This document shows, piece by piece, positions 7,023 through 33,464 of a DNA stretch of 64,000 bases. The stretch's first letter is position 1. Each line of letters starts with the position of its first letter. Under the pieces are notes generated by a model. It worked only from the letters and a program-made list of their open reading frames with translations, had not been told where the DNA came from and searched no databases. The stretch covers positions 124,001 through 188,000 of the forward strand of contig NZ_BNAF01000009.1 of assembly GCF_014653155.1 (NCBI RefSeq). The letters run 5' to 3'. Position numbers and translations under genes: made by a program. The stretch is from Sphingobacterium griseoflavum (GTDB lineage Bacteria; Bacteroidota; Bacteroidia; Sphingobacteriales; Sphingobacteriaceae).

Positions 7023-7057
7023 TTATTAACTACCTTGGCAGTCCTAGAATTCGCCGT

Positions 7058-8257: not shown

Positions 8258-8262
8258 CTCGA

Positions 8263-9264: not shown

Positions 9265-9477
9265 AGCTAAAGTTACTTTATTTTTCGTTCGATGAGCCTG
9301 CTATTTTTTCTGCTGTATCGATTAAAAAAAACGCAATAGTGGCAACTTTGTCTTGCTATTTTTCACAGTGTGCTATTCGGAAGGCCATAATAGGGATGTA
9401 TGTAGCATTGGAATGAGAATTGTTGGATCCTACAAAGTTATCACATAAGGAATTAAAAAAAATAAGTAAATTGCAGA

Positions 9478-10266: not shown

Positions 10267-10269
10267 CTG

Positions 10270-11376: not shown

Positions 11377-11408
11377 GTCGTTGTAACCAAAGGTCGAGAT
11401 CCCGCAAT

Positions 11409-11442
11409 AAAAAAGCGTTTGTCGTGACACAAACGCTTTTTT
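11409..11442. terminator. Bidirectional intrinsic terminator
   Basis: 14-bp perfect stem (11409-11422 with 11429-11442), 6-nt loop, A-run before and T-run after. It serves the TelA operon on plus and the lipoprotein gene on minus, whose stop is 16 nt further. Confidence 0.93.
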
Positions 11443-11457
11443 ATTGATCTTGTTCTG

Positions 11458-11991
11458 CTAATCTTCCCAACGTCTTTTCGGAAGACAGGATATGCTATGT
11501 ATTTTGCGTAGGACTACAGGTCTTTGATCAAAGCGGCTTTCTAGCACTAACGAGTCCGCATCGTGATAGGCCACGCGATAGCGCGGAAGGTATGTTCCGG
11601 TTTTGTAGCAACCGGCCGTTTTATACTTTCCGTTTTCTTTGGTATAGATGCCTTCTCCGATCAAACTATCCCCACGCATCACGTAGACTCCCTTCGCGTA
11701 TTCGTTCCACTCACCGTTCTTATAACAAGAGTCTGGTATGCGCTTCATTTTGGCATGAACGTGCATTGTGGTATACACCGAATCGCAAATGAACTTGAAT
11801 TCGTGCAAAGTGTAATCCATCATTTGCGTTTGATGGGGGATGCTGTCTTGCACCCATACACCTTGTAGGAACGCTGCACCTTCCGTTTGCATCTCGGAGT
11901 GTCGCACGCAGCTGTTTGTAGCAAACAGCATGCTCGCCAAAAGTGCCCAGCATGCCGTTCTTTTGATATTTTGCTCGGGTAGATTTATCAC
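11458..11991 (-). CDS. Small lipoprotein downstream of fumarase
   Basis: A 177-residue predicted lipoprotein of unknown function. The N-terminus has a positively charged start, a hydrophobic run ACWALLASMLFA and a lipobox-like TNSC at C28. The mature part has a possible beta-repeat flavour (KNGEWNEYAKGVYVMRGDS then KENGKYKTAGCYKTG). The start codon is a GTG only 4 nt after the fumC stop, and no earlier in-frame ATG exists, so the two are probably translationally linked. Such proteins next to fumC in this family are sometimes labelled fumarate hydratase by neighbourhood, but no fumarase motif is present. Confidence 0.65.
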   Translation of the reverse strand: MINLPEQNIKRTACWALLASMLFATNSCVRHSEMQTEGAAFLQGVWVQDSIPHQTQMMDYTLHEFKFICDSVYTTMHVHAKMKRIPDSCYKNGEWNEYAKGVYVMRGDSLIGEGIYTKENGKYKTAGCYKTGTYLPRYRVAYHDADSLVLESRFDQRPVVLRKIHSISCLPKRRWED

Positions 11992-11995
11992 CTAA

Positions 11996-13393
11996 TTATT
12001 TTAAGCTTCCAACCATTTCTTCTGGCTTCACCCATGCATCAAATTCTTCCGCGGTTACGTAACCCAAAGCAATAGCCGTTTCCTTCAACGTCGAATTGTT
12101 TTTATGGGCAGTTTGCGCGATTTCCGCAGCTTTGTAATAACCGATTTTGGTGTTCAATGCGGTAACAAGCATCAAGGAGTTGTTTACAAGTTCCTCTATG
12201 CGTGCGTAATTGGGTTCGATACCTACCGCGCAGTGCTCTTCGAAAGACACGCAAGCATCCCCGATTAATCGGGCCGACTGTAGGAAATTAGCAGCCATAA
12301 GCGGCTTGAACACATTCAATTCGTAATGCCCCTGCGTACCGCCAATGGTGATGGCAACATCATTGCCCATGACTTGTGCGGCCACCATTGTTAATGCCTC
12401 ACATTGGGTCGGATTGACTTTGCCGGGCATGATGGAAGATCCGGGTTCATTCTCTGGAATCAGAATTTCGCCAATGCCCGAACGTGGACCAGATGCTAAC
12501 ATGCGAATATCGTTGGCAATCTTATTTAATGAAACAGCAAGTTGCTTCAAGGCTCCGTGGGATTCCACGATAGCATCATGGGCCGCTAACGCCTCAAATT
12601 TGTTGGGTGCCGTAACGAAAGGCAATCCGGTGAACTCGGCAATATATTTTGCGACTAAAACATCATATCCTTTAGGCGTATTCAAGCCCGTTCCTACAGC
12701 GGTTCCGCCCAAAGCAAGTTCGGCTAAGTGTAGCAAGGTATTTTTGACGGCTTTGATGCCATAGTTTAGCTGAGCAACATAGCCAGACAGTTCTTGTCCC
12801 AAGGTAACTGGGGTTGCGTCCATCAAATGTGTACGGCCAATTTTTACGACGCTCATGAACTCTTCGGATTTACGCTGCAAGGTGTCGCGCAATTTTTCTA
12901 CGCCTGGAATGGTAACCTCAACAACTGCTTTGTATGCTGCGATATGCATCCCCGTAGGAAAGGTGTCGTTGGACGACTGTGATTTATTTACATCATCGTT
13001 TGCTTTGAGAACAGGATCGCCTTCACCGATTTTTCCGCCAGCCAATACCTGCGCACGGTTTGCAATGACCTCATTGACATTCATATTAGATTGCGTTCCG
13101 GATCCCGTTTGCCAAATAACCAATGGGAATTCATCCGTAAGTTTTCCGGCTAGGATTTCATCACAGACCGCCGCTATGGCATCTCGTTTCTCTATAGACA
13201 GCACGCCGAGATCGTGATTTGCAAAGGCGGCAGCTTTCTTGAGATAGGCAAAACCTGCTATGATTTCTGTAGGCATGGATGCCGAAGGCCCAATCTTAAA
13301 ATTGTTACGTGAACGCTCAGTCTGTGCTCCCCAGTATTTATCTGCAGGAACTTGCACTTCGCCCATCGTGTCTTTTTCTATTCTGAATGACAT
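11996..13393 (-). CDS. fumC: Fumarate hydratase class II
   Basis: A 465-residue, oxygen-stable, iron-independent fumarase that converts fumarate to L-malate in the TCA cycle. The lyase-1 signature [13 protein letters not shown] near residue 320 is complete, as are [14 protein letters not shown] near 97 and [11 protein letters not shown] near 185. Length matches FumC exactly, and the homotetramer-forming central helices are intact. A TAnnTTTG box 23 nt upstream gives a short leader. The following lipoprotein gene is probably co-transcribed. Confidence 0.96.
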
Positions 13394-13416
13394 AATTAAA
13401 CGTATTTATTTACGTG

Positions 13417-13424
13417 CAAAGTTA
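13417..13424 (-). promoter_or_regulatory. TAnnTTTG promoter box for fumC
   Basis: TAACTTTG on the minus strand, 23 nt before the fumC ATG. Confidence 0.6.
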
Positions 13425-13476
13425 ATGAAAATTATAGAGAAGCTGTGCGGATTGCCTGACTGAATTGCTTTTGTGG

Positions 13477-14046
13477 TTACATGCCAAGCCTCTTATCAAT
13501 TCGCTCTTGGACATGATGATAAAGCTGTTTGGGCTTAAGCGTTCGCCAAGGAAAGCTGTTCAGTTCGCCTCCAAAATGTATGTAATAGTCTATGCCGTGC
13601 GATTTGAACTCTTGAATCACATGTTCCCTAAAATTCAGCGCTACGATCCATCCATCGCTGCTGTCTTCATACCACTCTTCATAATAGGAGTCGTCTGATC
13701 CATGGAAATTTAATACATTCTCGCCGATCAGCAGAAATTTATCGACGCCCTCTGCTGCCAGCATATCGATTACCTCTCTTTTGAGCAACATAATATCGTT
13801 GTAAATAGCGTCGTTCCATTCGCCAATAAGCTCTATGATGGCGTATCCTTTTTCATAATCCACATAGAGCACTTTGAGGTATAGGGTTTGGGAACCAAAA
13901 TCATCCCACTGGGGATGGAGCAAAAAGTTATAGATCTTCTTATCAAACTCAAATTCGCTATAAACCACGCCATAAAATGGCGATCGCTCATCATCTGCAG
14001 CGACGTAATCGTCACGCCAATTGTAGTAGGGTTCTATCTCGTGCAA
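13477..14046 (-). CDS. Uncharacterised acidic protein, TTG start
   Basis: A 189-residue cytosolic protein that I do not recognise. It is rich in Asp, Glu, Tyr and Trp, with no signal peptide or membrane helix. Features include MHEIEPYYNWRDDY at the start, a central DVDYEKGY-like strand region (VLYVDYEKGYAIIELIGEW), and HGSDDSYYEEWYEDSSDGW near 122-140. The only usable start is a TTG at 14046, since a stop lies four codons upstream and the next ATG is deep inside. A near-match box TAACTTTA is 30 nt upstream. It sits 83 bp upstream of fumC on the same strand, which does not show a link. Confidence 0.6.
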   Translation of the reverse strand: MHEIEPYYNWRDDYVAADDERSPFYGVVYSEFEFDKKIYNFLLHPQWDDFGSQTLYLKVLYVDYEKGYAIIELIGEWNDAIYNDIMLLKREVIDMLAAEGVDKFLLIGENVLNFHGSDDSYYEEWYEDSSDGWIVALNFREHVIQEFKSHGIDYYIHFGGELNSFPWRTLKPKQLYHHVQERIDKRLGM

Positions 14047-14231
14047 AACGGATTTGTTTTAGTTGTCCAGCAGCTATAAAGTTACATGGAATTTGTATAT
14101 GTATAACTCAACATGCTAATTACTTCGGTAGCCTATTCCATATGACATAAAAATTATGAAACATTAGCCGCTTTTAAGTGTATTTTAAGCAAATACCTGT
14201 TGATTTAGCATGCAAATTGAAGAAAACTATT

Positions 14232-20719: not shown

Positions 20720-20750
20720 GAAAACAAAAGGGCACTGCCCCTTTGTTTCA
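20720..20750 (-). terminator. Terminator of the PspA-flotillin-ATPase operon
   Basis: An imperfect stem pairs GAAACAAAGGGGC with GCCCTTTTGTTTTC (minus sense, bulged) and ends in a T-rich arm. It overlaps the stop codon of the 1614-aa ATPase gene. Confidence 0.65.
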
Positions 20751-23700
20751 ATCTTTGTTTTGAATGGCCTTGATTATTCCCTCTAGATTTTCATTGAAAG
20801 AGAGGAGTTGTGCGAAGACCTTTTCGTCTTTCCCAAGCCCACCATGTTTGTTGTTTTTACGAAAAATTTCAACAATTTCTTTCCATCGTGCTTCTTCACT
20901 TGGCGTTTGCAGGCCTGCCAGTCCCTTTAACTTGAGTAGATTGCTCTCGGTGTCGGCGGTCAGTGTTTGCGATTCACTCTCATAATGTGCCAATACCACC
21001 TGCTCGATTTCTTTCGTATTCATCATAGGCACCACTTGGGCCACTAGCTTGCTCATGTTTCTGTAGGAGCCTTGCATTTTAAATGGTGGTTCCGTTCTGT
21101 AGCTGTCCTGCATCGCCGCACTGCGTATGTAGCTTTGGTTTACTTTAACCACCGTGTCTCGAATGGTCAGCACGTGTCGCAGCACCGAAAGGAAGTCGTC
21201 GATTTCTTGTTTAAGGTAGTTGCCCTCAAGATCAGGAAGCTGGTCAGCATCGGTTTCCACGTAGCGGATAAGTGCATAGAAATCGGCGAAAGACTTTCCT
21301 GATATTTTTGCAAGATAGCTATTTTCCATGGCTGCATTTTCGACGAGGCTGAGGTTGAAAAGGTGTTCGGTGTCGCCGATCACATCACCGAGGTTATATA
21401 CATCTGCACGGTTGGCCAACATGTCAGGTATCTGAAATTTTGCACCGCTCTCGGTATAGGGGTTTCCAGCCATCACGATACAAAAACGCTTACCTCGCAG
21501 ATCGTACGTTTTACTCTCGCCGTCAAAGATACCGTCGATCTTGCGTTGCCCATCCGCTAGGGATATGAATTTTTGGAGAAATTCGGCACTCAAATGCTGG
21601 ATATCATCGAGATAAAGCATCACGTTGTCTGCCATTTCTAAGGCTAAGTTTACCTTCTTTAACTCCTCCCGCTCGCCCGATGTTCTTGCCTCAACTGGAT
21701 CTATAGAGGTGATATGGTGACCAATCGTTGGGCCATTGACCTTAACAAAATGCAGGCCCATGGTTTTGGCTAAGTATTCCATCAGCGTAGTTTTCCCATA
21801 TCCTGGGGGTGATATCAACAGAAGCATCCCCATGCGTGCGGTACGTTTGTTGTCGCCTGCGGCCCCCAGTTGCTTAGCCAAATTGTTTCCTATCAGCGGG
21901 AAGTACACCTCATTAATCAGTTTGTTGCGAACGAAGGAAGTTAATATTTTTGGTTCAAACTCGTTGATCTTGAGCTCTTTTTCGTAGGCCTTGCTAATTT
22001 GTTCTTTTAGCGTGGTGAAAGCTGCGTAACGCGGTACGCTTTCTTTGGTAAAAGCGCTCAATTTTTTGATAAAGACATGATAGGGTATACTGTAGCTTCC
22101 GTTTTGCAAGGCTGCATGATTACCTTTAAGATTTTCCAACTGTATTCCCTCGTGTGCGAAGACGAGTTGATAGTTGTCGTTCGGAAAGAGGAGGGCAGAG
22201 GCCGTTTCAGGTATTAAATGTATCAGTTTATCCCCATTCTTTTGTTGATCGACATACGAATGCAACCAGTTAAGGGCCAAATAAAAGCGATCCATAAGAT
22301 CAAAATCGTTGCTTTGCACGTCGCTTTCAAAATCTTTGTGAGCTTTCTTTTCGCTTAAAAATCGCAGGAATTCCTGACGTAAATGATCCGCTTGCTCCGC
22401 TAGGGCAAACTTTCCGTATTGTGTGAAGGTTTCAAATAAATAAGCTGCCAGTTCGGAAGCTTCAACAGTCGTAACCTCCGTTGGTGTCGGCTTTTTAAGG
22501 AGCTGTTTTGATATTTCCGTAATCGTCGACTGGTAGTGGGTGGAGTTTGGAAACGCTTTTAAGACACGGTGCGCGGACTGAATTAAATGTGCTAAGCGCG
22601 AGCGCTCCTCTTCGGGAAGACTATGGTAGAAAAGTTGTGCAGAAGCACGTACAGAGCCCTCATAACGTAACAGTTCCAGCTTTTTATCCAGTTTTTGCAG
22701 CGCGTGGAATATAGCCAAGGCATCGATGTTGTGCACGCCTTTCATGTAGCTTTCCGAATATTGCTGTTCTACCATTTGATTGATGTAGCTTTCCACATCG
22801 AAATTCGACGTATTTTGTGCGGTCAAAAAAGCTTTGTAAGCAAGATACTCTCCGCGGTAAACGGTTTTATTTTCTGAGATCAACTCCTGGTCCCAGATAT
22901 CCGCATAGGCCAAAAATTCTTCATTCCGTACTTTTTGATAGAAGCTTGTGCCGGTCAGATGGTAGAAAAGCTCTTCGTTTCTCCTTACCAAGGTCAGGCT
23001 CAACGATTGCTTGTTGACCGTAAATTTATGTTTGCCAAGGGCGATGATGTTTTCGCCATCCACGTATAGCTCGGACTTATCACGCAGCGTCCGCAACGCA
23101 TCTTCCTGTGATTTCTTGAGCAAGTTTTCCAAGTTCTCGGCTTTGGAAATATCGTTCAGCGCTTGCAGTTCAGCCACGAGTTGGCGCACCTTGTCGATCA
23201 TGAGATCCGCCGCATAAAAGCTGAAGATCTCTTCCCGACTTTTGAAGGTGTTGGATTTGTTTTCGACGTTTTTTAACACCCTTAGGCCAATCTGTTCTAA
23301 AGCAATTGTACGCTTGTTGATCTGTTCAACAATTTGCTCACGTTTGCTGTTGAAAGCTTTGATGATTTCATCGCGCTTATCTGCAATTTTAAGGGCAAAG
23401 TCGTCAAATTCGGAAAACCGGCTCTCCAGTTCCTCAAGTTGTACCAAGGTTTTGGTATAGTATTCTTCTACCTTTTCGGCGGAGGAAGACAGTTCCAAAT
23501 AATTGGTTACCGATTGTTCGAGTAAGGTGAGCTGCGCAGAAAATTCAGCCGTAGCTTCCTTGCTCTTCAAGGACTGTAGCTTGCGCGTCAGTTGGGCGCG
23601 TACCTCATTGAGCGAAGCGAAGATGACCGATATCTTCTCTACAATTTGTGTCGTCTGGGTTGCATCATCGATCTTTAGGCTATGCAGGATGTCTATGAGC

Positions 23701-25592
23701 AATTCCAATTCGTTGGAGATAGCCGAATTGCCTTCTTCAATGGCTTTGGCATCAAAGGCTTTTTCGATAGCGCCAACAGATTGACGTTGCGCGACGACGC
23801 GCTTTTCGTAGCTGTCAAGCGCATCGTCCTTTAAAAGGAACGTAATGGTTTTTTCCGACAGCATCTCAATGATGCTATTTAGATTGGCCAGTATGGCTTC
23901 GACCTGATCCAGGTCAATATAGCGGACGTTTTTTAGCTCGATTACTTCACCTAGATGTCTGCGTGCATCGGCAAGTTGGTTCACTAATTGGTCCAACAGG
24001 GTGACTGTCGTGCTATCGACTATAAATTGTAATGCTTCCAGCTTCTTCTTTGCTGCGGATAGCTGTTCTTCTGCATGCTTGCGTTGTGCCTGTACTTTGA
24101 TAAATTCATCGATGGCCGTGTTGGCCACTTCCCGGATTTGCTTGAGTGGATGGGCAAGGTTTTTTAATGCGTCGTCTTCGATCCAAAAATACGAATCCAG
24201 TAAGCTAGTGGATTTCTTCAGGATGTCCTCATAAAGCCCTTCGTAACTATCTTCTTTGTACAGTAGTTGGATCACTTCCTGCGCTTCGGCCATAGCCTGC
24301 ACAATCTGCTTGTTGCCGACCTTGTAAAGCGGGTCGTTTTTCTTTTCTTCGTTTTCCTTCAGGGTGGCCATGTAGGGCGTGTCCCAAATTTGCACCTGAT
24401 GGTGACGGGTCGCTTCGGCCTCCGTCCGGAAGTAGGTTAAGCTTCCGTCTTGAAATATGGTAAATCCGTTACAGATAATCGGCGTTTCGACCGCCTGCTG
24501 AATGATGTTATAGGACATCAAAATGTAGGTGTTCGTTTCCGTTTGCGTGAAGACATATAAAAAGTCTTCGCCATTGGGCGACACAATCTTGCGTAGGAAG
24601 GTAACATGCTCGAAGTTTCCCTCGAATAGTTTGTGTGTGCCATTTTGTAGGTAGTAGCCGTTGGCGAATATAATACCTTGGTTGTCCGGTAGCAAGATCG
24701 CGGAGTCGTTCAGCGATTTAAGGTTGACCACCTCCTTGGTGCGCTGATTAAACACGTAGGCGCGAAACTCCTCCTGATACGGTTTGATGCGTATAGCGAT
24801 TAAATTGCCTAAATCAACGTAATGATATTCGGCGTCGTCAAGCTGCTGATCGAGATTTGTTACCTTCTCCGAATAGATACCCTTTCCACTGTCGGTGTTG
24901 TCTTCAATCTTGAACGTGATATCGCCATGTAAGGCCTCGATAAATACCTTGTCCAAAATCGATACGTGTGGATATTTCCCTAGACGGCGGTCTTCTAGTC
25001 CAGTTTTCGTCCATTCAAATTCAAATTGATCGGGCAAGCGAACTTCATGTATGCTTCGGTCGTCCTGATAGTGCAGTTTTCCATCTTTTATGAGCCACTT
25101 GAAAGCTTTCAGATCCGAAGATTTTTTGCTCGTTTGGAAAATCATGTACAGGTAATTCTCTGTCCTGCGAAACCGTGCGAAGATCGAATCTCTGTAGTAT
25201 TTGTACAGGTTTTGGTAATCGGCTATAAAGGCCGCATCATGGATAAGGTCGAGCGTCTGCGGGATAAATTGATTGTTCTCGAAGAGGTAAATACTGAATA
25301 CATCATCGAGTTTGATTTCTGAGCGAAGTCCAAAATGAACGTTGTATCCAAAGATACAGATATTCTCCAGGGCGATAATTCCACGGGCAACGCAGTTGTT
25401 GTCAGTGGTTATGCGCTGATTTGCTTTCAATACAAATGAGGTCGCATTGAAAATCTCTTTTCTAGCCTGGTTTAAGGCGTGTAACCGTTTTGATAGATCA
25501 TCCTTCTGCGTCAATAGCCTTTTACGGATGATTTCGTATGCGCCTACATCTAAGCTATTGTTTGTTGCGGTTCCTTCGTTGTTTTCTTGCAT
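20748..25592 (-). CDS. Giant AAA ATPase with DUF3686-type N-terminus ("DNA repair ATPase")
   Basis: A 1614-residue cytosolic protein. The first 400 residues are strand-rich with repeated hydrophobic/aromatic stretches and fit the DUF3686 region of proteins catalogued as ATPases involved in DNA repair. About 450-900 is long coiled coil. A AAA module lies near 1240-1500: Walker A SPPGYGKTT near 1262, Walker B NVMLYLDDIQ near 1322 and the sensor-1 type VMAGNPYTESG near 1365. The database name is historical; no nuclease or helicase motif was seen. It closes the PspA-flotillin operon, 144 bp after the flotillin gene. I infer a motor that remodels the flotillin/PspA assembly. Confidence 0.82.
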   Translation of the reverse strand: MQENNEGTATNNSLDVGAYEIIRKRLLTQKDDLSKRLHALNQARKEIFNATSFVLKANQRITTDNNCVARGIIALENICIFGYNVHFGLRSEIKLDDVFSIYLFENNQFIPQTLDLIHDAAFIADYQNLYKYYRDSIFARFRRTENYLYMIFQTSKKSSDLKAFKWLIKDGKLHYQDDRSIHEVRLPDQFEFEWTKTGLEDRRLGKYPHVSILDKVFIEALHGDITFKIEDNTDSGKGIYSEKVTNLDQQLDDAEYHYVDLGNLIAIRIKPYQEEFRAYVFNQRTKEVVNLKSLNDSAILLPDNQGIIFANGYYLQNGTHKLFEGNFEHVTFLRKIVSPNGEDFLYVFTQTETNTYILMSYNIIQQAVETPIICNGFTIFQDGSLTYFRTEAEATRHHQVQIWDTPYMATLKENEEKKNDPLYKVGNKQIVQAMAEAQEVIQLLYKEDSYEGLYEDILKKSTSLLDSYFWIEDDALKNLAHPLKQIREVANTAIDEFIKVQAQRKHAEEQLSAAKKKLEALQFIVDSTTVTLLDQLVNQLADARRHLGEVIELKNVRYIDLDQVEAILANLNSIIEMLSEKTITFLLKDDALDSYEKRVVAQRQSVGAIEKAFDAKAIEEGNSAISNELELLIDILHSLKIDDATQTTQIVEKISVIFASLNEVRAQLTRKLQSLKSKEATAEFSAQLTLLEQSVTNYLELSSSAEKVEEYYTKTLVQLEELESRFSEFDDFALKIADKRDEIIKAFNSKREQIVEQINKRTIALEQIGLRVLKNVENKSNTFKSREEIFSFYAADLMIDKVRQLVAELQALNDISKAENLENLLKKSQEDALRTLRDKSELYVDGENIIALGKHKFTVNKQSLSLTLVRRNEELFYHLTGTSFYQKVRNEEFLAYADIWDQELISENKTVYRGEYLAYKAFLTAQNTSNFDVESYINQMVEQQYSESYMKGVHNIDALAIFHALQKLDKKLELLRYEGSVRASAQLFYHSLPEEERSRLAHLIQSAHRVLKAFPNSTHYQSTITEISKQLLKKPTPTEVTTVEASELAAYLFETFTQYGKFALAEQADHLRQEFLRFLSEKKAHKDFESDVQSNDFDLMDRFYLALNWLHSYVDQQKNGDKLIHLIPETASALLFPNDNYQLVFAHEGIQLENLKGNHAALQNGSYSIPYHVFIKKLSAFTKESVPRYAAFTTLKEQISKAYEKELKINEFEPKILTSFVRNKLINEVYFPLIGNNLAKQLGAAGDNKRTARMGMLLLISPPGYGKTTLMEYLAKTMGLHFVKVNGPTIGHHITSIDPVEARTSGEREELKKVNLALEMADNVMLYLDDIQHLSAEFLQKFISLADGQRKIDGIFDGESKTYDLRGKRFCIVMAGNPYTESGAKFQIPDMLANRADVYNLGDVIGDTEHLFNLSLVENAAMENSYLAKISGKSFADFYALIRYVETDADQLPDLEGNYLKQEIDDFLSVLRHVLTIRDTVVKVNQSYIRSAAMQDSYRTEPPFKMQGSYRNMSKLVAQVVPMMNTKEIEQVVLAHYESESQTLTADTESNLLKLKGLAGLQTPSEEARWKEIVEIFRKNNKHGGLGKDEKVFAQLLSFNENLEGIIKAIQNKD

Positions 25593-25665
25593 TCGTGTAC
25601 GTAGTCTTGGGTTGCTATCCTTGTTAAATCGTTAAGTATTACGCTTGTCGATTTTGTCCTTCTTG

Positions 25666-25704
25666 AAATGCTGTTCAGGCGCTATGAGCGCCCGAACAGC
25701 ATTT
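25666..25704 (-). repeat. Long intercistronic stem-loop between flotillin and ATPase genes
   Basis: Arms of 18 nt (25666-25683 and 25687-25704) pair with a single A-C mismatch around a 3-nt loop. On the minus strand no T-tract follows, so it is not a classical terminator. An RNA-stability or partial-attenuation element setting the ratio of flotillin to ATPase is likely. Confidence 0.75.
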
Positions 25705-25736
25705 TAAATTTTGGGTAAGCCGGTCGCGACCTTGTT

Positions 25737-27851
25737 TTATAAGCTTATTTTTTTGTTGGAAACGCCTAAATTGTTGGCCAACGAAAATAAGGAGTTGATA
25801 AAACCGCTATCTTCCTTATCGGCTGAAGCAGCCTGCTGTAGCTTCAGTAAAGCGGCCGATACGGTCAGGTTTTTGATGTCGTTCGAGGAAATTCCGTATT
25901 TGTCTGCTAAGCTCTTTATTTTCTCACCGAGGTCGCCATCGCCATGCTCGCCAATCAATGCATTTTTGATCGCTGTTGCGTGTTTGGAGTTGTCAATCAA
26001 TTGATCAAAACCCTTCGAGTTTGAAACCTGCCGAACGATGTTCTCGAAGAACATCGTCTCTCCACCAACGATATCGATCTTGGCCGACTTTAGGGCTTCT
26101 GACAACACCCCTGCTTGCGCGGTAGCGATATCTTTTTGGATGTTGATATGAGCCATTTCGATATCACGTTCTTTTTGCAGTTGCAATTTAAACTCTTCGT
26201 GTTCTTTCCCTACTCCGTCAAGTTGTTTCATTGCAGCCGCTTTTTCTTCGATTCCTTTTGCTTCTGCCAAAGCTTTTTCGCGCACCACTTCTGCCTGGGC
26301 CAATCCTTCGGTACGTAAGGCTGCGGCTTTCTTCTCGATAACACTGGCTTCTACGGTGCCTTGCTTTTCTTCGGCTTCCGCTTTTGCGATCATCACTTCC
26401 GCTTCTGATAGACCGATAGCAGCCTCTTCTTTCGCTTGCGCTTCGGCGATAATTTTGCGGGCTTCCGCTTCTTTCGATGATGCTTCTTTCTTTGCCTCGG
26501 CCTCAATTAGCAACTCTTGTGCTTTTTTCTCGGCGATCTGGCGTGCTGCCTCGGCATCGATCACTTTCTTCGCGGCTTCTTGTTCTGCTGCAATCTTGGC
26601 AGCTTCGGCTGCTTTGACCGTAGCAATCAAGCGTTCCTCAGCTTCTTGTGAGGCTGCGATGACCCCAGCTTGCTTCTTACGCTCCACTTCACGGAAGGTT
26701 TCCACATCTTTAACCGACTGCTGTTCTTCCACCACGCCTTTTTCTAGTTGGACGCGCTCTTTGATTACATTCTGTATACCTTTTTTCTCCGTTTCGATGG
26801 ATCGTTCTTTATCTATCTGTGCCAAAGTCACGATGCGCTCCCGCTCTGTTGCTTCCAATGCACGATCTTTTTCCACGCGTTCAGTTTCTACGGCGTCAGT
26901 CCTCAATTTAGCTTTCTCGGCAATGATAATCTGGCGCAACTTGTTTTCTTCCTGTATTGCGAGCTGTTCTTCCGTTGCAATGCGTACGGTTTCCGACTTC
27001 AGGCGCTCTTCTTCGCGCACTTTCGTGATCTCGGCGTCCTCACGCGCTTTGATGTTGTCGATCTCCCGGCGTTGCCTTTCTTCTTTCTCTGCCAGTTGCC
27101 TGTCGAGTTCCAAGATTGCTTCCCGCGCTTCCACATTTTGTTTGCGAATAACTTTCTCCTCGTCTCGGCGTATCAAGTTGGCGTGGATGTTCTGCTGGGC
27201 AGTAAGTTCTGTTATTTTCTTGATACCTGCAGAATCCAAGATGTTGTCCGGGCTCAAAAATTTCAGCTCCGTTTGTTCCAAATAGTCGATGGCGCAGTCG
27301 TCCAAGATATAACCGTTTAGATCTGTGCCGATAATATTTAAGATCTCTTCCCGAAATTCACGGCGTGCTTCGTACAGTTCGATAAAATCGAATTTCTTAC
27401 CCACTGTTTTCAGTGCTTCGGAGAATTTGGATTCAAAAATGTTTTTCAAGGTTTCCGGCTCGCTCGCGCGGTCGCAGCCCAAATTCTGCGCGACATTGAT
27501 GACGTCGTCAACGGATTTGTTCACTCGTACGAAGAAGGCCACCTTGATATCCGCACGGATATTATCTTTACAGATAAGTCCGTCATGCTGCATACGAGCG
27601 ATTTCGATTTTTTTGACGGAGATGTCCATGATCTCCATTTTGTGGAATACGGGTACCACATACATTCCTTTGTTAAAGGCCACACTGGAGCCCCCAACAC
27701 CGGTCCTCACGATAGCTTTTCCTTGTGGGATTTTTTTATAGAACATACTGAGTACCACAAAAAATGCCAAAACAAGGAATACGACTACGCCGACGGCGAT
27801 CAAAACTAATCCCGTAAGTCCGTCTACAAATAATAAAGTGCTGCTTGTCAT
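25737..27851 (-). CDS. Flotillin-family SPFH protein, YqiK-like
   Basis: A 704-residue flotillin. One N-terminal membrane segment (about 11-37, GLVLIAVGVVVFLVLAFFVV) is followed by an SPFH/PHB domain (about 40-225, including KKIPQGKAIVRTG and MYVVPVFHKMEI). A very long Glu/Ala/Lys coiled coil occupies about 230-590, and a C-terminal globular tail includes GGETMFFENIV. Flotillins oligomerise into cage-like membrane microdomains. The preceding gene, 13 bp away, encodes a YqiJ-type OB-fold membrane protein, the usual partner of this subgroup. The coiled coil produces long antisense open frames that are not genes. Confidence 0.93.
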   Translation of the reverse strand: MTSSTLLFVDGLTGLVLIAVGVVVFLVLAFFVVLSMFYKKIPQGKAIVRTGVGGSSVAFNKGMYVVPVFHKMEIMDISVKKIEIARMQHDGLICKDNIRADIKVAFFVRVNKSVDDVINVAQNLGCDRASEPETLKNIFESKFSEALKTVGKKFDFIELYEARREFREEILNIIGTDLNGYILDDCAIDYLEQTELKFLSPDNILDSAGIKKITELTAQQNIHANLIRRDEEKVIRKQNVEAREAILELDRQLAEKEERQRREIDNIKAREDAEITKVREEERLKSETVRIATEEQLAIQEENKLRQIIIAEKAKLRTDAVETERVEKDRALEATERERIVTLAQIDKERSIETEKKGIQNVIKERVQLEKGVVEEQQSVKDVETFREVERKKQAGVIAASQEAEERLIATVKAAEAAKIAAEQEAAKKVIDAEAARQIAEKKAQELLIEAEAKKEASSKEAEARKIIAEAQAKEEAAIGLSEAEVMIAKAEAEEKQGTVEASVIEKKAAALRTEGLAQAEVVREKALAEAKGIEEKAAAMKQLDGVGKEHEEFKLQLQKERDIEMAHINIQKDIATAQAGVLSEALKSAKIDIVGGETMFFENIVRQVSNSKGFDQLIDNSKHATAIKNALIGEHGDGDLGEKIKSLADKYGISSNDIKNLTVSAALLKLQQAASADKEDSGFINSLFSLANNLGVSNKKISL

Positions 27852-27864
27852 TGATTCAGATAAT

Positions 27865-28548
27865 TTAGATGCTGTGTAAGTTTATTTCTTTTTTAACGTA
27901 ATAGATTTTTCTGTCCGCTGTTTCGCCTGTAATAACCACTTGCTCGCCGTAAGCGATTTGGTCACCATTATGGCTTTTCACCGGTAGCCGTATCACATCG
28001 CCAGCAATAATGATCTCTACGGATCCGATGCGGTCTTCTGCTACAGAGGTGCGCATGGTGCCCGAGCGCCCTAAGAAATCGTGCGGCTCTTCGCCCGCAT
28101 AGCCGACCTTTTTGTATAGCTTGGCGACAGGGATGGTAACGTAGTGCATGAGCATGTAGGTCAGGATGAAGATCGGGATCAAGATAAGCACCGACTTCCA
28201 TCCAAATTGGGCGAGGTTCAAGGCTATCGAGGAGGCGATGGTGATCAGCCAACCGATGAATTTGAACAAGGTGACAATCACCATAAAAGGTGCTTTTCCA
28301 ATATTGATAAAGTTCATCGCTTTTGATAGTAAGGTAGTTTCGCCATCGCGCTGCATATCTGGATCGTCGGGGCTGTCCACTTCGTGGACGTCTGCACCGT
28401 CAAAGTCTATGTCTGCATCTGCATCGCCAAAATCAAAGCCGTCGCCGATCAGCATGGTAAAAAGCCAATAGACGAGCGAGATGCCTGTCAGCACGGTCAT
28501 GATGGCGTTTGGTAGCGGGTTAAAGAGCAAATGTAAGATAGCGTCCAT
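27865..28548 (-). CDS. YqiJ/NfeD-like OB-fold membrane protein
   Basis: A 227-residue inner-membrane protein. A helix near 15-35 is followed by a strikingly acidic segment (about 37-67, beginning GFDFGDADADID), then two or three helices between 80 and 145. A C-terminal soluble OB-fold, about 150-225, contains LGRSGTMRTSVAEDRIGSVE and GEQVVITGE. NfeD-type OB folds bind flotillin-family partners, and the flotillin gene follows directly. The acidic loop may bind cations or basic partners; this is inference. Confidence 0.85.
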   Translation of the reverse strand: MDAILHLLFNPLPNAIMTVLTGISLVYWLFTMLIGDGFDFGDADADIDFDGADVHEVDSPDDPDMQRDGETTLLSKAMNFINIGKAPFMVIVTLFKFIGWLITIASSIALNLAQFGWKSVLILIPIFILTYMLMHYVTIPVAKLYKKVGYAGEEPHDFLGRSGTMRTSVAEDRIGSVEIIIAGDVIRLPVKSHNGDQIAYGEQVVITGETADRKIYYVKKEINLHSI

Positions 28549-28562
28549 GTGAACTGAAAGAT

Positions 28563-28763
28563 TTAGTTAATGGGTCGTTTAAATGTATAGTGAAACGTCC
28601 AAGACGTGCCGCTCACAGCAAGGTCTTGCATAGCGACAAGTTCCCATCCCTCTTGGCCGAGCGTATTCAGGATGTTATCCAGTTCTTGCGGATCCAGTTT
28701 CTTTTGCCAAAAACCCTTTGGCTCTACTTTTACGGTTTTGTATTCAAATCTTTTCATCATCAT
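28563..28763 (-). CDS. DUF4177 small protein
   Basis: A 66-residue protein with the DUF4177 pattern: FEYKTVKVEPKGF, then LDNILNTLGQEGWELVAMQD and a terminal FHYTFKRP strand. Three ATG codons in a row begin at 28763, and the first overlaps the pspA TGA (ATGA), which indicates translational coupling. The function is unknown. Its constant place between pspA and the OB-fold gene suggests a small regulator or adaptor of the complex. Confidence 0.85.
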   Translation of the reverse strand: MMMKRFEYKTVKVEPKGFWQKKLDPQELDNILNTLGQEGWELVAMQDLAVSGTSWTFHYTFKRPIN

Positions 28764-29437
28764 TTAATTCCCATTTGTTTTTTTAATGCTGTTAGTTCGT
28801 CTTGTATAGCCTGCTGTTCATCCGGGAGTTCGCTCTTGTTTTGTGCCATCTCGGCGTATGCTTCTGCCAAAGCTTCATCGTTGGCTACCTTACGTTTTAC
28901 TCGCTGCAACATATCAAGCGTACTGTTGCTGTCCATGTTGGCCATCTGCTGGTTGGCTAAGGAGGCGGCCTCGTTTACCTTTTGCTTGGCACGGAGGGTG
29001 GTCAGCTCTTTTTCCCATTTCGCAATATTGTATTTCAGCACGTCGATATGCTTGTGTACTTCCTGCAGCTTGCTAGTTTGTTCCAGCAGTTCTGCCTGCA
29101 GCTCCTGCGTATCTTCCACGAGTCTTTTCTTAGTGAGTAGGGCCTCGCTAGCCATTTTTTCACCTTCCGTTGCGGTGAGTTCGCCTGCTTGAGCCTTGGC
29201 TAATGCGCGTTTTGCCTTTTCGGCAAGCGTATTTGCTTCCTGCTCTTTGTCGCGGACGCGGCTTTCCGTGCGGATAATCGTCGCCCGTACTTTAGCGGCA
29301 GATTCCACCGTGTCACTGAGCTGCTTTTTCATATCACGAATGCCCTGTTCACTCAGGCTGATAGGGTCTTCCATTCGTTCCACAAGAGCATGGATTTCGG
29401 CTTGCCCGATTTTTAAGAGTCTTTTGAAAATGTTCAT
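28760..29437 (-). CDS. PspA/IM30-family membrane-stress protein
   Basis: A 225-residue, almost wholly helical PspA/IM30 (ESCRT-III superfamily) protein. The N-terminus MNIFKRLLKIGQAEIHALVERMEDP has the amphipathic helix and ME(D)P element that bind anionic membranes. Long coiled-coil hairpin helices cover 25-180. PspA oligomers protect or remodel a leaky inner membrane. The start was taken at ATG 29437; a GTG directly before it is also possible. The YbjN-like stop lies 5 nt upstream, and the DUF4177 gene overlaps the stop. There is no PspBC or PspF, so control must differ from the E. coli Psp system. Confidence 0.9.
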   Translation of the reverse strand: MNIFKRLLKIGQAEIHALVERMEDPISLSEQGIRDMKKQLSDTVESAAKVRATIIRTESRVRDKEQEANTLAEKAKRALAKAQAGELTATEGEKMASEALLTKKRLVEDTQELQAELLEQTSKLQEVHKHIDVLKYNIAKWEKELTTLRAKQKVNEAASLANQQMANMDSNSTLDMLQRVKRKVANDEALAEAYAEMAQNKSELPDEQQAIQDELTALKKQMGIK

Positions 29438-29442
29438 CACAT

Positions 29443-29832
29443 CTATGGTTTTGAAAATTGTATAAGTTGTTCATAATACTCGCTAAGCAATAGGGACAAT
29501 GAATTGATTGCCGCGTCAAATTCGTTTTGATCAAGGTTATGCACCTGTAGGGTGTAGCGGTAGATCACTTTTTTGCCGTCTTCGGTCAGTGCAAAGCCTC
29601 CATGGATAATATCACGGTTCTTGATAAGTAAAGCTTTGAAGACTTCCGACCTTTCATCAACGAGCGTAAAAAGATACAATTCGAAAATAATAACTGGGGG
29701 CGCGACGCCAATGATGAGGTTTCGTATGCCGTCGGCATCGCTCTCGATCATGAAAAAGCCTTCTTGCTCGTCTTTTTTGCTGATGCTGAATCCACTGTTT
29801 TCTATATATTTTTCGACCTTACTAAATTGCAT
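29443..29832 (-). CDS. YbjN-like (type III chaperone-fold) protein
   Basis: A 129-residue acidic protein, first gene of the operon. The segment ALLIKNRDIIHGGFALTED with the following YRYTLQVHNLDQNEFD strand-helix matches the YbjN/T3SS-chaperone-like fold, often labelled molecular chaperone Tir in Bacteroidota. Such proteins commonly precede PspA genes. It probably acts as an accessory chaperone or stress-response factor. The leader is about 50 nt from the predicted promoter box inside the palindrome at 29885. Confidence 0.72.
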   Translation of the reverse strand: MQFSKVEKYIENSGFSISKKDEQEGFFMIESDADGIRNLIIGVAPPVIIFELYLFTLVDERSEVFKALLIKNRDIIHGGFALTEDGKKVIYRYTLQVHNLDQNEFDAAINSLSLLLSEYYEQLIQFSKP

Positions 29833-29851
29833 TGGCTAATTAAATTGTATA

Positions 29852-29899
29852 TTTGCTTATATTCTTTGCATAAAGATAGTTAATGCAAAATTATTTTGC
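29852..29899. promoter_or_regulatory. Palindromic operator region between PspA operon and XRE gene
   Basis: GCAAAATTATTTTGC at 29885-29899 is a perfect inverted repeat (GCAAAA/TTTTGC, 3-nt centre). Its minus strand holds a TAATTTTG promoter box (29893-29886) for the PspA operon. A second inverted pair, TTTGCAT at 29865 and ATGCAAA at 29883, overlaps it, and a further TTTGC half-site lies at 29852. The arrangement suggests a multi-site operator for the divergent XRE regulator; binding has not been shown. Confidence 0.6.
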
Positions 29900-29929
29900 A
29901 AAAAAAAGTACGATTTCTTTTTAAAATAA

Positions 29930-30595
29930 ATGACGATGAGCCAAATTGGAAACAATATTAAGAAGTTGAGAAGTGTGAAGGGGCTGAGCCAGCAGGCATT
30001 TGCAGACCTGTTTGGATTAACTAGGGGCAATATTTCATCGTACGAGGAACGGCGCGCTGAACCAAAAATCGAAGTGATGCTGCAGGTTGCAAAATATTTT
30101 AGCATACCGATTGCTGAATTGTTGGAAAAGCAGCTTACCGTAAATGAAATTTTGAATTTTGAAGATTATTTTCCGTCGGACCCGCTCACGATAGAGACGG
30201 GAACCTTGGCCAAAATTCCGTTTTTAGATCGGGATTATTTTCGGCATTACGATGGCTCTGCTGCAAGCTTGGATAGCCGGCCGTCTATATACCTGCCACT
30301 CGATAGTAACAATAAATTTCTTGCAATAGAGAATAGTTCTTTCATTCCCCACCCAGTTGGTTTTGCCTTCGAGGAACATATGATTTTGTTCTTTGAGCAG
30401 GTTAGGGTAGATATCCTACATACTTTAGGTGATCATTTCGGCTACTTTGGTGGCGATACGCCCTTTTTCGGTCGATACGATTTGGCAGGGAAGGAGATTG
30501 GCCTGGTGCTGAATGATTGGAAGAAGGAGGTGTATACCGCTGAGACAGCTCCGCACTTTTGGAAGCTGTTTGGGAAGTTTGAACGGGTGATGTAG
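29930..30595 (+). CDS. XRE-family regulator with degenerate S24-like C-terminus
   Basis: A 221-residue transcription factor. Residues about 5-62 form an HTH-XRE domain (LSQQAFADLFGLTRGNISSYE). After a linker beginning LTVNEILNF, the C-terminal half resembles the LexA/S24 fold: LAIENSSFIPHPVGFAFEE aligns with the GDSMxP region, with a serine in place. No matching catalytic lysine is obvious, so it is probably a sensor or dimerisation domain. It is divergent from the PspA-flotillin operon across 97 bp full of TTTGC half-sites and is the natural candidate for its control. ATG 29936 is an alternative start. Confidence 0.85.
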   Translation: MTMSQIGNNIKKLRSVKGLSQQAFADLFGLTRGNISSYEERRAEPKIEVMLQVAKYFSIPIAELLEKQLTVNEILNFEDYFPSDPLTIETGTLAKIPFLDRDYFRHYDGSAASLDSRPSIYLPLDSNNKFLAIENSSFIPHPVGFAFEEHMILFFEQVRVDILHTLGDHFGYFGGDTPFFGRYDLAGKEIGLVLNDWKKEVYTAETAPHFWKLFGKFERVM

Positions 30596-30605
30596 TAGAA
30601 ATAAC

Positions 30606-30627
30606 GGAGATGGCTTAAGCCATCTCC
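30606..30627. terminator. Palindromic hairpin between XRE gene and uvrA
   Basis: 9-bp perfect stem (30606-30614 with 30619-30627) with a TTAA loop that contains the uvrA stop codon. The plus-strand tail is T-rich, so it mainly ends the XRE transcript. Confidence 0.75.
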
Positions 30628-33464
30628 AGTTTTAAAAATCGTGCTGTTTCGTTTTTCTTTTGTTTAATGAGGTCTTCTGGAACTCCGGCAAACATCAACT
30701 GTCCGCCATTTTTGCCGCCCTCAGGCCCCATGTCAATTACCCAATCGGCGGTTTTTACGACGTCGAGGTTGTGCTCGATAATCAATACCGTGTTTCCACG
30801 GTCAACCAAGCGGTTGATTACGCCAAGCAATACATTGACGTCTTCAAAATGAAGTCCGGTGGTGGGTTCATCTAAGATGTAAAAAGTGTTTCCAGTATCT
30901 TTTTTTGAAAGCTCTGTTGCTAATTTCACACGCTGTGCCTCACCGCCAGATAGCGTCGTCGAGGATTGTCCGAGTGTGATATAACCTAAGCCCACGTCTT
31001 GGAGGGTTTTGATTTTTCTGTAGATCGATGGAATATTCTCAAAAAAAGTTACCGCTTCGTCGATGCTCATATCCAACACATCGGAAATCGATTTTCCACG
31101 GTAGCGTACTTCCAGCGTTTCTCGGTTATAACGTTTTCCTTGACACGTCTCGCAAGGTACCTGCACGTCCGGCAAGAAATTCATTTCGATAATTTTCATA
31201 CCGGCACCTTGGCAGGTTTCGCAACGTCCACCTTTAACGTTGAATGAGAAACGTCCCGGCTTATAGCCGCGGATTTTCGCTTCAGGAAGCTGCACATATA
31301 AGGTGCGGATATCTGAAAAGACCCCAGTATAGGTCGATGGGTTTGATCGTGGCGTGCGTCCAATAGGGCTTTGATCGATCTCAATAACCTTGTCGATATG
31401 CTTCAAGCCCTCGATAGATTTATAGGGCATTGGTGCAGTCTTCGCACGGAAGAAATGTTTGTTCAAGATGGGGTATAAGGTCCCAGTGATGAGGCTGGAT
31501 TTCCCTGATCCGGAAACACCAGTTACCAAGATTAACTTTCCTAAAGGGAAATCGACGCTGACGTTTCGCAGGTTATTTCCGGAAGCCCCTTTTAAGGAAA
31601 GCGTATGTCCGCTTCCGGCGCGACGTTCTTTAGGAATCGCTACCTCGCGCTGTCCATTGAGATAACTCGCCGTAAGGGAGTCGGCTTTCATAATTTCTTT
31701 TGGTGTGCCTTGTGCCACTACTTCTCCGCCATGTACACCTGCTTCAGGCCCCATGTCAATCACGTAGTCGGCGTGCAAGATCATATCTTTGTCATGCTCT
31801 ACTACCAGTACCGAGTTGCCGATATCACGCAGATTCTTAAGGGAGTTGATCAGCCGTTCGTTATCACGTTGGTGTAGCCCAATGCTAGGCTCGTCCAGTA
31901 TGTACAGCACATTGACCAGTTGCGAACCGATCTGCGTGGCCAAGCGTATACGCTGGGCCTCTCCGCCCGACAGCGTTTTCGAGGAGCGATCAAGCGTCAG
32001 ATAGCTCAACCCAACGTCCAATAGGAAGCCAATTCGTGCACGAATCTCTTTTAAGATCTCTACTGCGATCGTTCGTTGACGTTCATGGAGACGTTCCTCA
32101 ATGCCATTGAACCACTCCTTCAAGCTACTGATATCTAAAGCTGCCAGCTCGGAAATATTCTTGTCGTCTATTTTAAAATGCAAGGATTCTTTTTTAAGCC
32201 GCGCTCCATGGCAGACGGGACAAGTAACTTTTGTGCGAAAGTCATCCAACACTGGTGCATCGTCGCTGCTTTTGCCATTTATCTCCTCCAACATCTTAAA
32301 GATGCCGGAGAACTGTACTTGGTATTCGCGGGATCCATAACTGCCGTAAGAAACTGTGAGGCTCATTGGCTCGTCCCCGCCGAACAGCAAGGTATTTAGC
32401 TGTTCATCGGACAATTTCTCTACCGCTGTGCTGAGACTGAAGTCCATTTTCTTGGCGACGGCTTTAATCACCTGGAACGACCACGATTCCCGAACGGGGC
32501 CTAAAGGTAAAATTGCACCTTTTTGTATACTCAGTTTTTTGTCGGGCACCACGATATCCTTATCAATTTCGAAGATGTAGCCTAACCCATCACATTTAGC
32601 ACAGGCGCCATAGGGCGAGTTGAATGAAAAGGTGTTAGGTTGCGGTTCGTCGTAGGATATTCCAGATTCCGCATCCATCAGGTAGCGGCTAAAGAAATGT
32701 TCGCGGCCTTCTTTGTTTGCTATTTTAATGATCCCTTTTGCTGTCTTCATCGCTTGCATCACGGAAGTATAGAGCCTTTTGCGGTCACCTTCAGACGCAT
32801 AGAGACGATCTACCACGGTTTCTATATCGTGTATTTTATAGCGGTCGACTTGCATCTTGGGCGCGATATCCAAGATCTCGCCATCCACGCGAACCTTTGT
32901 GTAGCCCTGTTTACGGATTTGCTCAAAAAGCTCGCGGTAATGTCCTTTTCGGCCTTTTACAACGGGAGCCAAAATGTATATGGGCTCGTCTTTGAATTCC
33001 TCCATGATCTTTTCGACAATCTGCTCCTCCGACATCCGTTGCATAAGTTTACCCGTCGCATAGGAGTATGCTTCGCTTGCCCGCGCATATAGCAAGCGCA
33101 AAAAGTCATAGATTTCGGTGATTGTACCCACCGTGGATCTTGGGTTTTTGTTGGTGGTTTTTTGTTCGATGGAAATTACCGGGCTTAATCCAGCTATCTT
33201 GTCTACATCCGGACGTTCCATTCCACCCAAAAACTGCCTGCTGTATGCAGAAAAAGTTTCCATGTATCGACGTTGGCCCTCCGCATAGATCGTATCAAAG
33301 GCTAAAGAAGATTTTCCGCTGCCACTTAATCCGGTGATAACGACCAATTCGTTGCGCGGGAAGCTAACATCAATGTTTTTAAGGTTGTGTGCTCGCGCAC
33401 CAAAAACTTCGATTTCATGCTGTTCACCTAAATCTATATGGGTTTTCTGCTTGGAGGAACTCAT
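30615..33464 (-). CDS. uvrA: Excinuclease ABC subunit A
   Basis: A 949-residue UvrA, the damage-recognition ATPase of nucleotide excision repair. It has two ABC modules: Walker A GLSGSGKSSLAF near 48, a second GVSGSGKSSLITG, and two LSGGEAQR signature motifs. Zinc modules are visible as CAKCDGLG, CPVCHGARL and CETCQGAG/CETCQGKR. ATG 33464 is preferred over TTG 33488, because the promoter box TACCTTTG at 33500-33493 would place the TTG at or before the transcription start. It is a single-gene unit. Confidence 0.96.
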   Translation of the reverse strand: MSSSKQKTHIDLGEQHEIEVFGARAHNLKNIDVSFPRNELVVITGLSGSGKSSLAFDTIYAEGQRRYMETFSAYSRQFLGGMERPDVDKIAGLSPVISIEQKTTNKNPRSTVGTITEIYDFLRLLYARASEAYSYATGKLMQRMSEEQIVEKIMEEFKDEPIYILAPVVKGRKGHYRELFEQIRKQGYTKVRVDGEILDIAPKMQVDRYKIHDIETVVDRLYASEGDRKRLYTSVMQAMKTAKGIIKIANKEGREHFFSRYLMDAESGISYDEPQPNTFSFNSPYGACAKCDGLGYIFEIDKDIVVPDKKLSIQKGAILPLGPVRESWSFQVIKAVAKKMDFSLSTAVEKLSDEQLNTLLFGGDEPMSLTVSYGSYGSREYQVQFSGIFKMLEEINGKSSDDAPVLDDFRTKVTCPVCHGARLKKESLHFKIDDKNISELAALDISSLKEWFNGIEERLHERQRTIAVEILKEIRARIGFLLDVGLSYLTLDRSSKTLSGGEAQRIRLATQIGSQLVNVLYILDEPSIGLHQRDNERLINSLKNLRDIGNSVLVVEHDKDMILHADYVIDMGPEAGVHGGEVVAQGTPKEIMKADSLTASYLNGQREVAIPKERRAGSGHTLSLKGASGNNLRNVSVDFPLGKLILVTGVSGSGKSSLITGTLYPILNKHFFRAKTAPMPYKSIEGLKHIDKVIEIDQSPIGRTPRSNPSTYTGVFSDIRTLYVQLPEAKIRGYKPGRFSFNVKGGRCETCQGAGMKIIEMNFLPDVQVPCETCQGKRYNRETLEVRYRGKSISDVLDMSIDEAVTFFENIPSIYRKIKTLQDVGLGYITLGQSSTTLSGGEAQRVKLATELSKKDTGNTFYILDEPTTGLHFEDVNVLLGVINRLVDRGNTVLIIEHNLDVVKTADWVIDMGPEGGKNGGQLMFAGVPEDLIKQKKNETARFLKLEMA

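Follow-up and report, generated by a model that had tools for sequence, protein, structure and literature searches.

A conserved PspA–flotillin–ATPase module with a predicted local switch in a Bacteroidota genome

At positions 20748-29832 of a 64,000-nt stretch of contig NZ_BNAF01000009.1 (hereafter, the window), six genes on the minus strand encode a CesT/Tir–YbjN-like chaperone, a PspA/IM30 protein, a DUF4177 protein, a YqiJ/NfeD-type membrane partner, a flotillin-like protein and a large DUF3686 ATPase (the motor). All six proved genuine, lie where they had been placed and make up a conserved unit, which is also horizontally variable. Comparison of related loci shows three parts, as delimited from sequence, that travel together: a core (YqiJ-type protein, flotillin and DUF3686 ATPase), a PspA arm (CesT/Tir and PspA) and a switch (a divergent XRE-family regulator and an inverted repeat). 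With moderate confidence we read the module as a self-contained, locally regulated and ATP-driven membrane-scaffold machine to which PspA is an add-on.

The module is known in outline. The sequence-only reading of this DNA described each family as known in isolation; the combination had been outlined already by Ravi et al. (mSystems 2024; PMC11237479), whose main text describes an operon of CesT/Tir, PspA, band-7/flotillin, AAA+ and YqiJ/YuaF genes, assigns a coiled coil and a beta-propeller to the AAA+ protein, names abbreviated PspA-less operons as well, and proposes ATP-dependent remodelling for PspA–AAA+ pairs. The window shares the same five families, with adjacent CesT/Tir and PspA genes, a Band_7 domain and a propeller/coiled-coil AAA+ protein, whereas its counterpart of the YqiJ/YuaF protein with three transmembrane segments is matched by YqiJ_N only below the Pfam cut-off (E 0.16). 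Our additions are the switch, the MoxR-like placement of the motor, the optional status of PspA and a hairpin between the flotillin and ATPase genes; the all-or-none pattern of inheritance and the genome-wide tally of carriers without PspA also come from the present analysis. The main text of that paper makes no mention of LexA, XRE, peptidase, DUF4177, MoxR, an inverted repeat or Sphingobacter-, some of which its supplements and figure may show.

Gene content and the core of the module

All six open reading frames (ORFs) were recovered in the order and with the gaps first reported for them. The CesT/Tir–YbjN-like chaperone (29443-29832, minus strand, as are the next five; 129 aa; Pfam CesT_Tir_1, E 1.3e-44, and YbjN, 9.6e-5) is followed by PspA/IM30 (28760-29440; 226 aa; PspA_IM30, 1.3e-33), which starts either at GTG 29440, leaving a gap of 2 nt, or at ATG 29437, leaving 5 nt. 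Next come the DUF4177 protein (28563-28763; 66 aa; PF13783, 4e-13), which overlaps PspA by 4 nt, the YqiJ/NfeD-type membrane partner (27865-28548; 227 aa) after 14 nt, the flotillin-like SPFH protein (25737-27851; 704 aa, with a long coiled coil) after 13 nt and, after 144 nt, the DUF3686 ATPase (20748-25592; 1614 aa), in which Pfam (DUF3686, 2.9e-163; AAA, 7.8e-8) and predicted models point to a beta-propeller, a coiled coil and a MoxR-like AAA+ domain. The window's own genome has a single PspA match and a single DUF3686 protein.

Some of the family assignments rest on partial matches. Band_7/SPFH was found on residues 1-234 of the flotillin (E 3.2e-15) once this N-terminal part was searched by itself; with all 704 aa as the query there was nothing in Pfam at E <= 1, and the C-terminal flotillin domain was unmatched by Pfam. 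The earlier call of a YqiJ-like protein is weak by sequence match, as noted above; the homologue in locus L022 is annotated as DUF1449. The SPFH domain gene adjoins this NfeD/YuaF/YqiJ-type gene, as in flotillin/SPFH2–NfeD pairs. With the classical E. coli-type Psp system the module shares the PspA domain, but PspB, PspC and PspF, which had been described as absent, were indeed unmatched among the 15 neighbouring ORFs scanned, no genome-wide search having been made.

Gene neighbourhoods were compared in 92 loci, namely those with at least 6 kb of upstream DNA among 108 loci (16 were dropped for short DNA). The 108 comprised the 80 top-ranking of 585 confirmed stretches, 8 loci from a plasmid collection (8 of 12 matches were used, several being misfiled chromosomes) and 20 loci hand-picked from 58 carriers. 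The loci are related, so the counts are not independent, and the profiles used to score XRE, CesT, PspA, YqiJ and DUF4177 came from 28 of the loci and may miss weak relatives. A flotillin homologue adjoins the ATPase in 90 of the 92 loci, from many phyla (on the opposite strand in L108), and a YqiJ-type gene is present in 88. XRE, CesT and PspA are all present in 53 loci, and the ATPase is accompanied by YqiJ and flotillin alone in 30 and by flotillin alone in 2. PspA lies beside the motor in 55 loci, two of which have no scored XRE and CesT (L024 and L087, the latter possibly with an unscored XRE or CesT gene). The few remaining loci carry XRE without the CesT–PspA pair (L075, L079), DUF4177 without that pair (L076) or neither flotillin nor the pair (L077, L120).

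Flotillin is thus the constant neighbour of the motor, and PspA is optional. All 53 full blocks are from Bacteroidota (32 by NCBI name, 20 in genomes of the window's own class and one on a Hymenobacter plasmid). The core alone was found in 21 named loci from five other phyla and, pQBR103 aside, in six plasmid-collection loci (Actinomycetota, Deinococcota, Gammaproteobacteria). Mapped on a 91-row tree of the ATPase, the full-block label requires 5 changes, compared with a mean of 29.0 for shuffled labels, which indicates that the core acquired, or lost, its PspA arm and switch just a few times. At the genome level, 12 of 32 motor genomes, whose completeness is not stated, have no PspA match (E <= 0.001) and 16 have none over the cut-off; this set consists of 31 genomes without PspA beside the motor plus that of L087, which has PspA there. 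The PspA-less motor carriers include named isolates of Dysgonomonas, Chryseobacterium, Hyunsoonleella and Acidaminobacter.

These counts change the picture that the sequence-only reading had drawn. PspA is not at the heart of the module, given the 30 loci that have YqiJ, flotillin and ATPase without an adjacent PspA and the 12 genomes without a PspA match. The earlier image of a cage plus a motor holds insofar as the motor beside flotillin is the most constant arrangement, but PspA appears to be a side arm rather than an obligate load of the motor. Nor is DUF4177 a general member: it occurs in just 19 of the 92 loci, 18 of which are Sphingobacterium-type, Algoriella or Empedobacter; it was ruled out as a core part and is an add-on limited to certain lineages. 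In L076, from a Saprospiraceae metagenome-assembled genome, the gene for a DUF4177-like protein is found 3' of the ATPase gene, off its usual place.

Several loci have arrangements of their own. In L024 (pQBR103), positions 980-14184 hold an operon-like run in which a YjfI–PspA–DUF2491–DUF350–DUF1190–glutathionylspermidine-synthase set is joined to the flotillin–ATPase core, a fusion on a plasmid of two of the operon classes of Ravi et al. Sphingobacterium loci L037 (6490-7923) and L051 have a 477-aa ORF, without a PADLOC match, between flotillin and ATPase. The Chryseobacterium loci L075 and L079 have a weakly scored XRE gene beside the core and no CesT–PspA pair, in genomes without a PspA match.

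Inheritance of the unit

In the sample of the window's own genus (93 genomes; the nearest named loci are from Sphingobacterium species, and the genus is probably Sphingobacterium), DUF3686, PspA and flotillin each occur in 51 genomes and the three sets are identical (Fisher 1.9e-27 for co-occurrence, uncorrected for kinship). None of the other 42 genomes has the ATPase, PspA over the cut-off or flotillin. ATPase and PspA share a contig in 50 of the 51 carriers and are split over contigs in one (G372). In agreement with the proposal of a conserved block, the genes are not scattered in relatives: one and the same set of 51 genomes holds the three main families, and the gene order is kept across Bacteroidota families. 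Compact enough to travel as one cassette, the module also provides a natural contrast of presence and absence within one genus, 51 genomes against 42.

In the window and 10 other carriers (11 of 51), the module is flanked by uvrA and mutL, with a gap of 10.1-28.3 kb between them; in 5 further carriers it lies beside uvrA, and in 35 of the 51 it is found elsewhere. Of the 42 module-free genomes, 20 have uvrA and mutL separated by 27-2378 nt, 15 have them on different contigs and 7 have them far apart. The occupied and empty uvrA–mutL sites indicate that gain and loss involve the entire unit, which has more than one site. Possible decay was seen in Dysgonomonas capnocytophagoides (L058), where the ATPase is split into two ORFs, and in three genus genomes, where a single stop codon interrupts the match to flotillin (G368, G370) or to PspA (G334); sequencing errors may account for any of these cases.

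Outside the genus the distribution is patchy, with DUF3686 in 18 of 395 class genomes, 8 of 296 phylum genomes and none of 14 control genomes. PspA was found over the cut-off in 52 of the class genomes, that is, in 18 of 18 ATPase carriers against 34 of 377 genomes without the ATPase (Fisher 7e-18, uncorrected for kinship). In 12 of the 18 class carriers PspA is on the same contig within ~5 kb of the ATPase; in the other 6 (G387, G459, G566, G652, G704, G719) it is not, which weighs against our reading of the module. Obligate dependence of the motor on PspA, hinted at by the 51 of 51 genus carriers and the 18 of 18 class carriers, was dropped because 12 of the 32 motor genomes have no PspA match.

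A patchy, mobile, XRE-controlled and membrane-acting unit could also be an anti-phage or inter-bacterial conflict system. Its presence in 51 of 93, 18 of 395 and 8 of 296 genomes at the three levels, its gain or loss as a unit at one site and the relatives on the Hymenobacter plasmid and on pQBR103 would all fit, but the searches aimed at defence functions did not bear this out. PADLOC was uninformative for the module itself, with helix-turn-helix (HTH)-only matches for XRE and weak ones for the P-loop of the ATPase and the coils of PspA. Among 139 neighbour ORFs (E <= 1e-10), PADLOC models each had at most 2 matches and Pfam families at most 3, within the top 25 families listed for either database and with 17 loci and ORFs >900 aa left out. 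A single-protein query found no relative in viral contigs. A defence island is unsupported by these neighbour scans and by the viral-contig search, and we regard a conflict system as improbable.

The motor domain and its load

In its predicted fold, the motor domain is nearest to the MoxR AAA+ chaperones and stands behind a beta-propeller. Models of residues 830-1614 (pLDDT 85.3, pTM 0.71) and 1-830 (pLDDT 86.6, pTM 0.64) were compared with solved structures. For the AAA+ domain, the ten best VIA-align matches are MoxR proteins, with CbbQ2 at Z 17.1 (251 residues, 3.8 A), NorQ at 16.4-14.9 and cso-CbbQ at 14.1; dynein (14.0) and ClpA (12.7) are found further down. A loop interrupts predicted helix 2, fitting the MoxR helix-2 insert, and the Walker A motif GPPGYGKT and the Walker B Asp-Asp are invariant. 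The N-terminal beta-propeller, predicted at residues 51-406, gave middling values with the DCAF1 WD40 domain (Z 10.3; 223 residues, 6.0 A) and YncE (8.9) and agrees with the propeller named in the main text of Ravi et al. (PMC11237479). Sequence searches of the PDB added one weak match for the flotillin profile (QmcA, 0.0031) and, for the ATPase profile, P-loop matches only.

The MoxR chaperones NorQ, CbbQ and RavA are accordingly the nearest solved folds, but the protein encoded in the window differs from them in its length of 1614 aa, with a propeller and a coiled coil in front, and in having flotillin as its constant neighbour. Several results weigh against the placement or against an active motor. 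The Foldseek E-value puts RuvB first (3.9e-6), ahead of NorQ (1.6e-5). A VWA protein is the usual partner of MoxR ATPases, and none of the six proteins has a VWA match in Pfam. Finally, Walker B has Asp instead of Glu as its second residue in 47 of 47 aligned ATPases and in 19 of 19 in another set. Glutamate is the usual catalytic residue at this place (PMC9976466), so ATP hydrolysis by the motor is not to be taken for granted.

The names given to the protein in databases, "ATPase involved in DNA repair" in Pfam and "DNA repair ATPase" in PGAP, suggest another function, that of a DNA-repair factor encoded between mutL and uvrA. This site in the window and 10 other genomes and the Foldseek top match to RuvB would agree with such a role, but the module is away from uvrA in 35 of 51 carriers, its constant neighbour is flotillin and, in the second alignment (VIA-align), MoxR-like chaperones outscore RuvB. 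In the literature searched, DUF3686 was unmentioned and "DNA repair ATPase" was not found together with flotillin. We consider a role in DNA repair very improbable, and the label calls for caution, as the context of DUF3686 proteins gives it no backing. A literature search for MoxR together with flotillin found only work on prophages and on whiB7 expression in a mycobacterium.

A more serious competitor concerns the load of the motor. In an ESCRT-like scheme, which comes near to both the sequence-only reading and the view of Ravi et al., the ATPase would pull apart PspA polymers as Vps4 does those of ESCRT-III, and flotillin would merely position the reaction. The adjacency of PspA and ATPase in 55 of 92 loci, the presence of PspA in all 51 genus carriers, the association in the class sample and the ATP-dependent remodelling proposed in the main text of Ravi et al. 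for PspA–AAA+ pairs (PMC11237479) all speak for this scheme. It is at odds with the 12 of 32 motor genomes without a PspA match and with the ten best fold matches, all of them MoxR proteins. No Vps4-type AAA domain is among the 50 Foldseek and VIA-align matches listed, a result still compatible with such a domain. Because the motor–flotillin pair persists where no PspA was found, PspA is less likely to be the main load of the motor, and we judge the ESCRT-like scheme unlikely.

We retain the membrane-scaffold machine as the preferred reading, in which PspA would be an add-on to a motor-plus-flotillin machine. Once the unit is switched on, CesT/Tir may escort PspA to the membrane, which PspA would coat and stabilise, while YqiJ and flotillin would build a large scaffold on the cytoplasmic face of the inner membrane. 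The ATPase, as a MoxR-like ring, could dock on this scaffold by its propeller and coiled coil and then remodel or load client membrane complexes held there. Both ends of this scheme have precedents. In B. subtilis, an SPFH protein is required to place PspA at the membrane, according to the abstract of PMC8581546, and this tie between SPFH protein and PspA at the membrane is what the PspA–YdjG–YdjH–YdjI system has in common with the module; it differs in its YdjG/H membrane proteins, and the abstract names no ATPase, CesT/Tir or XRE. The MoxR pair RavA–ViaA acts at the inner membrane, and an action on lipid microdomains has been suggested in the account of PMC9489729. A CesT/Tir-fold protein next to PspA is also seen in the bac cluster of P. 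aeruginosa, where PMC10948618 mentions, as unpublished results of its authors, a strong interaction between BacA (YjfI/DUF2170, CesT/Tir fold) and BacB (PspA); that cluster, as described there, has four genes (pa3732 to pa3729), with no ATPase seen. The constant ATPase neighbour of flotillin across phyla bears on the function of bacterial flotillins, including any work that they may do with a motor.

Regulatory elements

On the input side, the sequence-only reading overlooked a divergent gene for an XRE-family regulator (29930-30595, plus strand; 221 aa; HTH_19, 2.5e-10, and HTH_3, 3.1e-9) and an inverted-repeat site in front of it. Of the 55 loci in which PspA adjoins the motor, 53 have an XRE orthologue, which is divergent from the CesT gene in 53 of 53. 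A 15-bp inverted repeat, GCWAA-N5-TTWGC, was identified in 46 of 54 XRE–CesT intergenic regions, searched with 90 nt on each side. It is present in 20 of 20 Sphingobacterium-type regions (XRE score >290 bits, a set defined after the regions were viewed) and in 26 of 34 others, against dinucleotide-shuffle means of 0.74 and 1.24 loci, respectively. The spacer was always 5 bp although 3-10 were permitted and, when spacers of 0-15 were counted singly, only 5 stood out among 0-10 (20 and 26 loci, 0 elsewhere); a spacer of 12, found in 11 Sphingobacterium-type regions and one other, comes from a second half-site. Enumeration of 5-mer arms with spacers of 0-12 placed GCTAA-N5 at the top in the 34 other regions (29 of 34), where the best of 8 shuffles reached 21, with A/T runs.

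In the window, the predicted operator repeat TGCAAAATAATTTTGCA sits in the intergenic region at 29833-29929. The site at 29884-29900 is a perfect inverted repeat, TGCAAAAT-t-ATTTTGCA, whose 17-bp form TGCAAAWNNNWTTTGCA occurs at this one place in the 4.42-Mb genome (0 for a reversed-pattern control). It is overlapped by a promoter-like element on the minus strand, TTG-N20-TATCTTTA (29871-29901), recognized by its match to TTG-N17-22-TAnnTTTR, which we take to be the Bacteroidota -33/-7 promoter pattern; a scan for sigma-70 promoters was uninformative (11 sites against 13.8 in shuffles). The inverted repeat is probably the operator of the XRE regulator, which, from its position, would act as a repressor.

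Several observations weigh against this part of the preferred reading, starting with the absence of the operator form from 8 of the 54 regions. Five of these 8 have GCT-N9-AGC instead (Markov resamples, mean 0.75, maximum 3), and all 8 belong to one regulator group, with SVG in the recognition helix in 7 and the eighth unparsed. Furthermore, the promoter-like element overlaps the operator in just 24 of 54 regions, the window's own regulator gave no S24 match in Pfam, its C-terminal domain notwithstanding, and repression over activation is an assumption.

The N-terminal HTH, an S24-like C-terminal domain over the Pfam cut-off in the regulators of L022 and L030, and an inverted repeat at a divergent promoter region are features shared with S24 repressors of the CI/LexA type. 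Apart from the unmatched S24 domain of the window's regulator, the difference lies in the catalytic dyad: in an alignment to E. coli LexA, used as a yardstick and itself weak (hhalign probability 49.6, E 1.7e-4, 66 columns), the column of LexA K156 has Arg in 19 of 20 long regulators and Gly in one, and Ser is unconserved. Replacement of the dyad Lys by Arg makes self-cleavage unlikely. By occupying the 15-bp repeat at the promoter of the operon, an XRE dimer might hold the unit off until membrane trouble, which would be sensed when a ligand or protein binds rather than through self-cleavage of the LexA type. With one predicted operator, de-repression of a single repressor should turn the whole system on.

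A broader idea, which we put forward tentatively, is that the flotillin scaffolds of a whole class of bacterial systems are not passive and that a dedicated MoxR-like motor reads them via its beta-propeller; Bacteroidota would have added a CesT–PspA arm together with their own LexA-like repressor, which does not cleave itself and has a single genomic operator, making a portable, self-regulating membrane-repair cassette.

The gap between the flotillin and ATPase genes contains a strong hairpin without a U-run (25662-25708, minus strand). The predicted folding energy of the gap is -42.3 kcal/mol (z -5.8), a value reached by 0 of 200 shuffles. In 47 of the 61 loci whose gap measures 50-400 nt, the most stable 45-nt fold outdoes every one of 20 dinucleotide shuffles (median z -4.4), against 6 of 33 for the YqiJ–flotillin gap, 10 of 100 for the last 150 nt of flotillin and 12 of 108 for the first 150 nt of the ATPase gene; in the 150 nt 3' of the ATPase gene, where terminators are expected, the count is 43 of 107. 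The position of the gap hairpins is kept, their sequences differ and a T-run is mostly missing. A simple intrinsic terminator was rejected, as 9 of the 35 stems of at least 11 pairs have at least 5 T in the next 9 bases. This hairpin probably sets motor output below scaffold output, or else protects the upstream message. No known RNA family was found in the module at the gathering threshold.

Single terminator-like sites are weak evidence because the scan for such hairpins gave 25 sites against 12.4 in shuffles. One was listed 3' of the ATPase gene (20727-20744, minus strand; z -2.0, 4 of 200 shuffles as good) and another between the converging XRE and uvrA genes (30605-30628), on the minus strand, that is, for uvrA.

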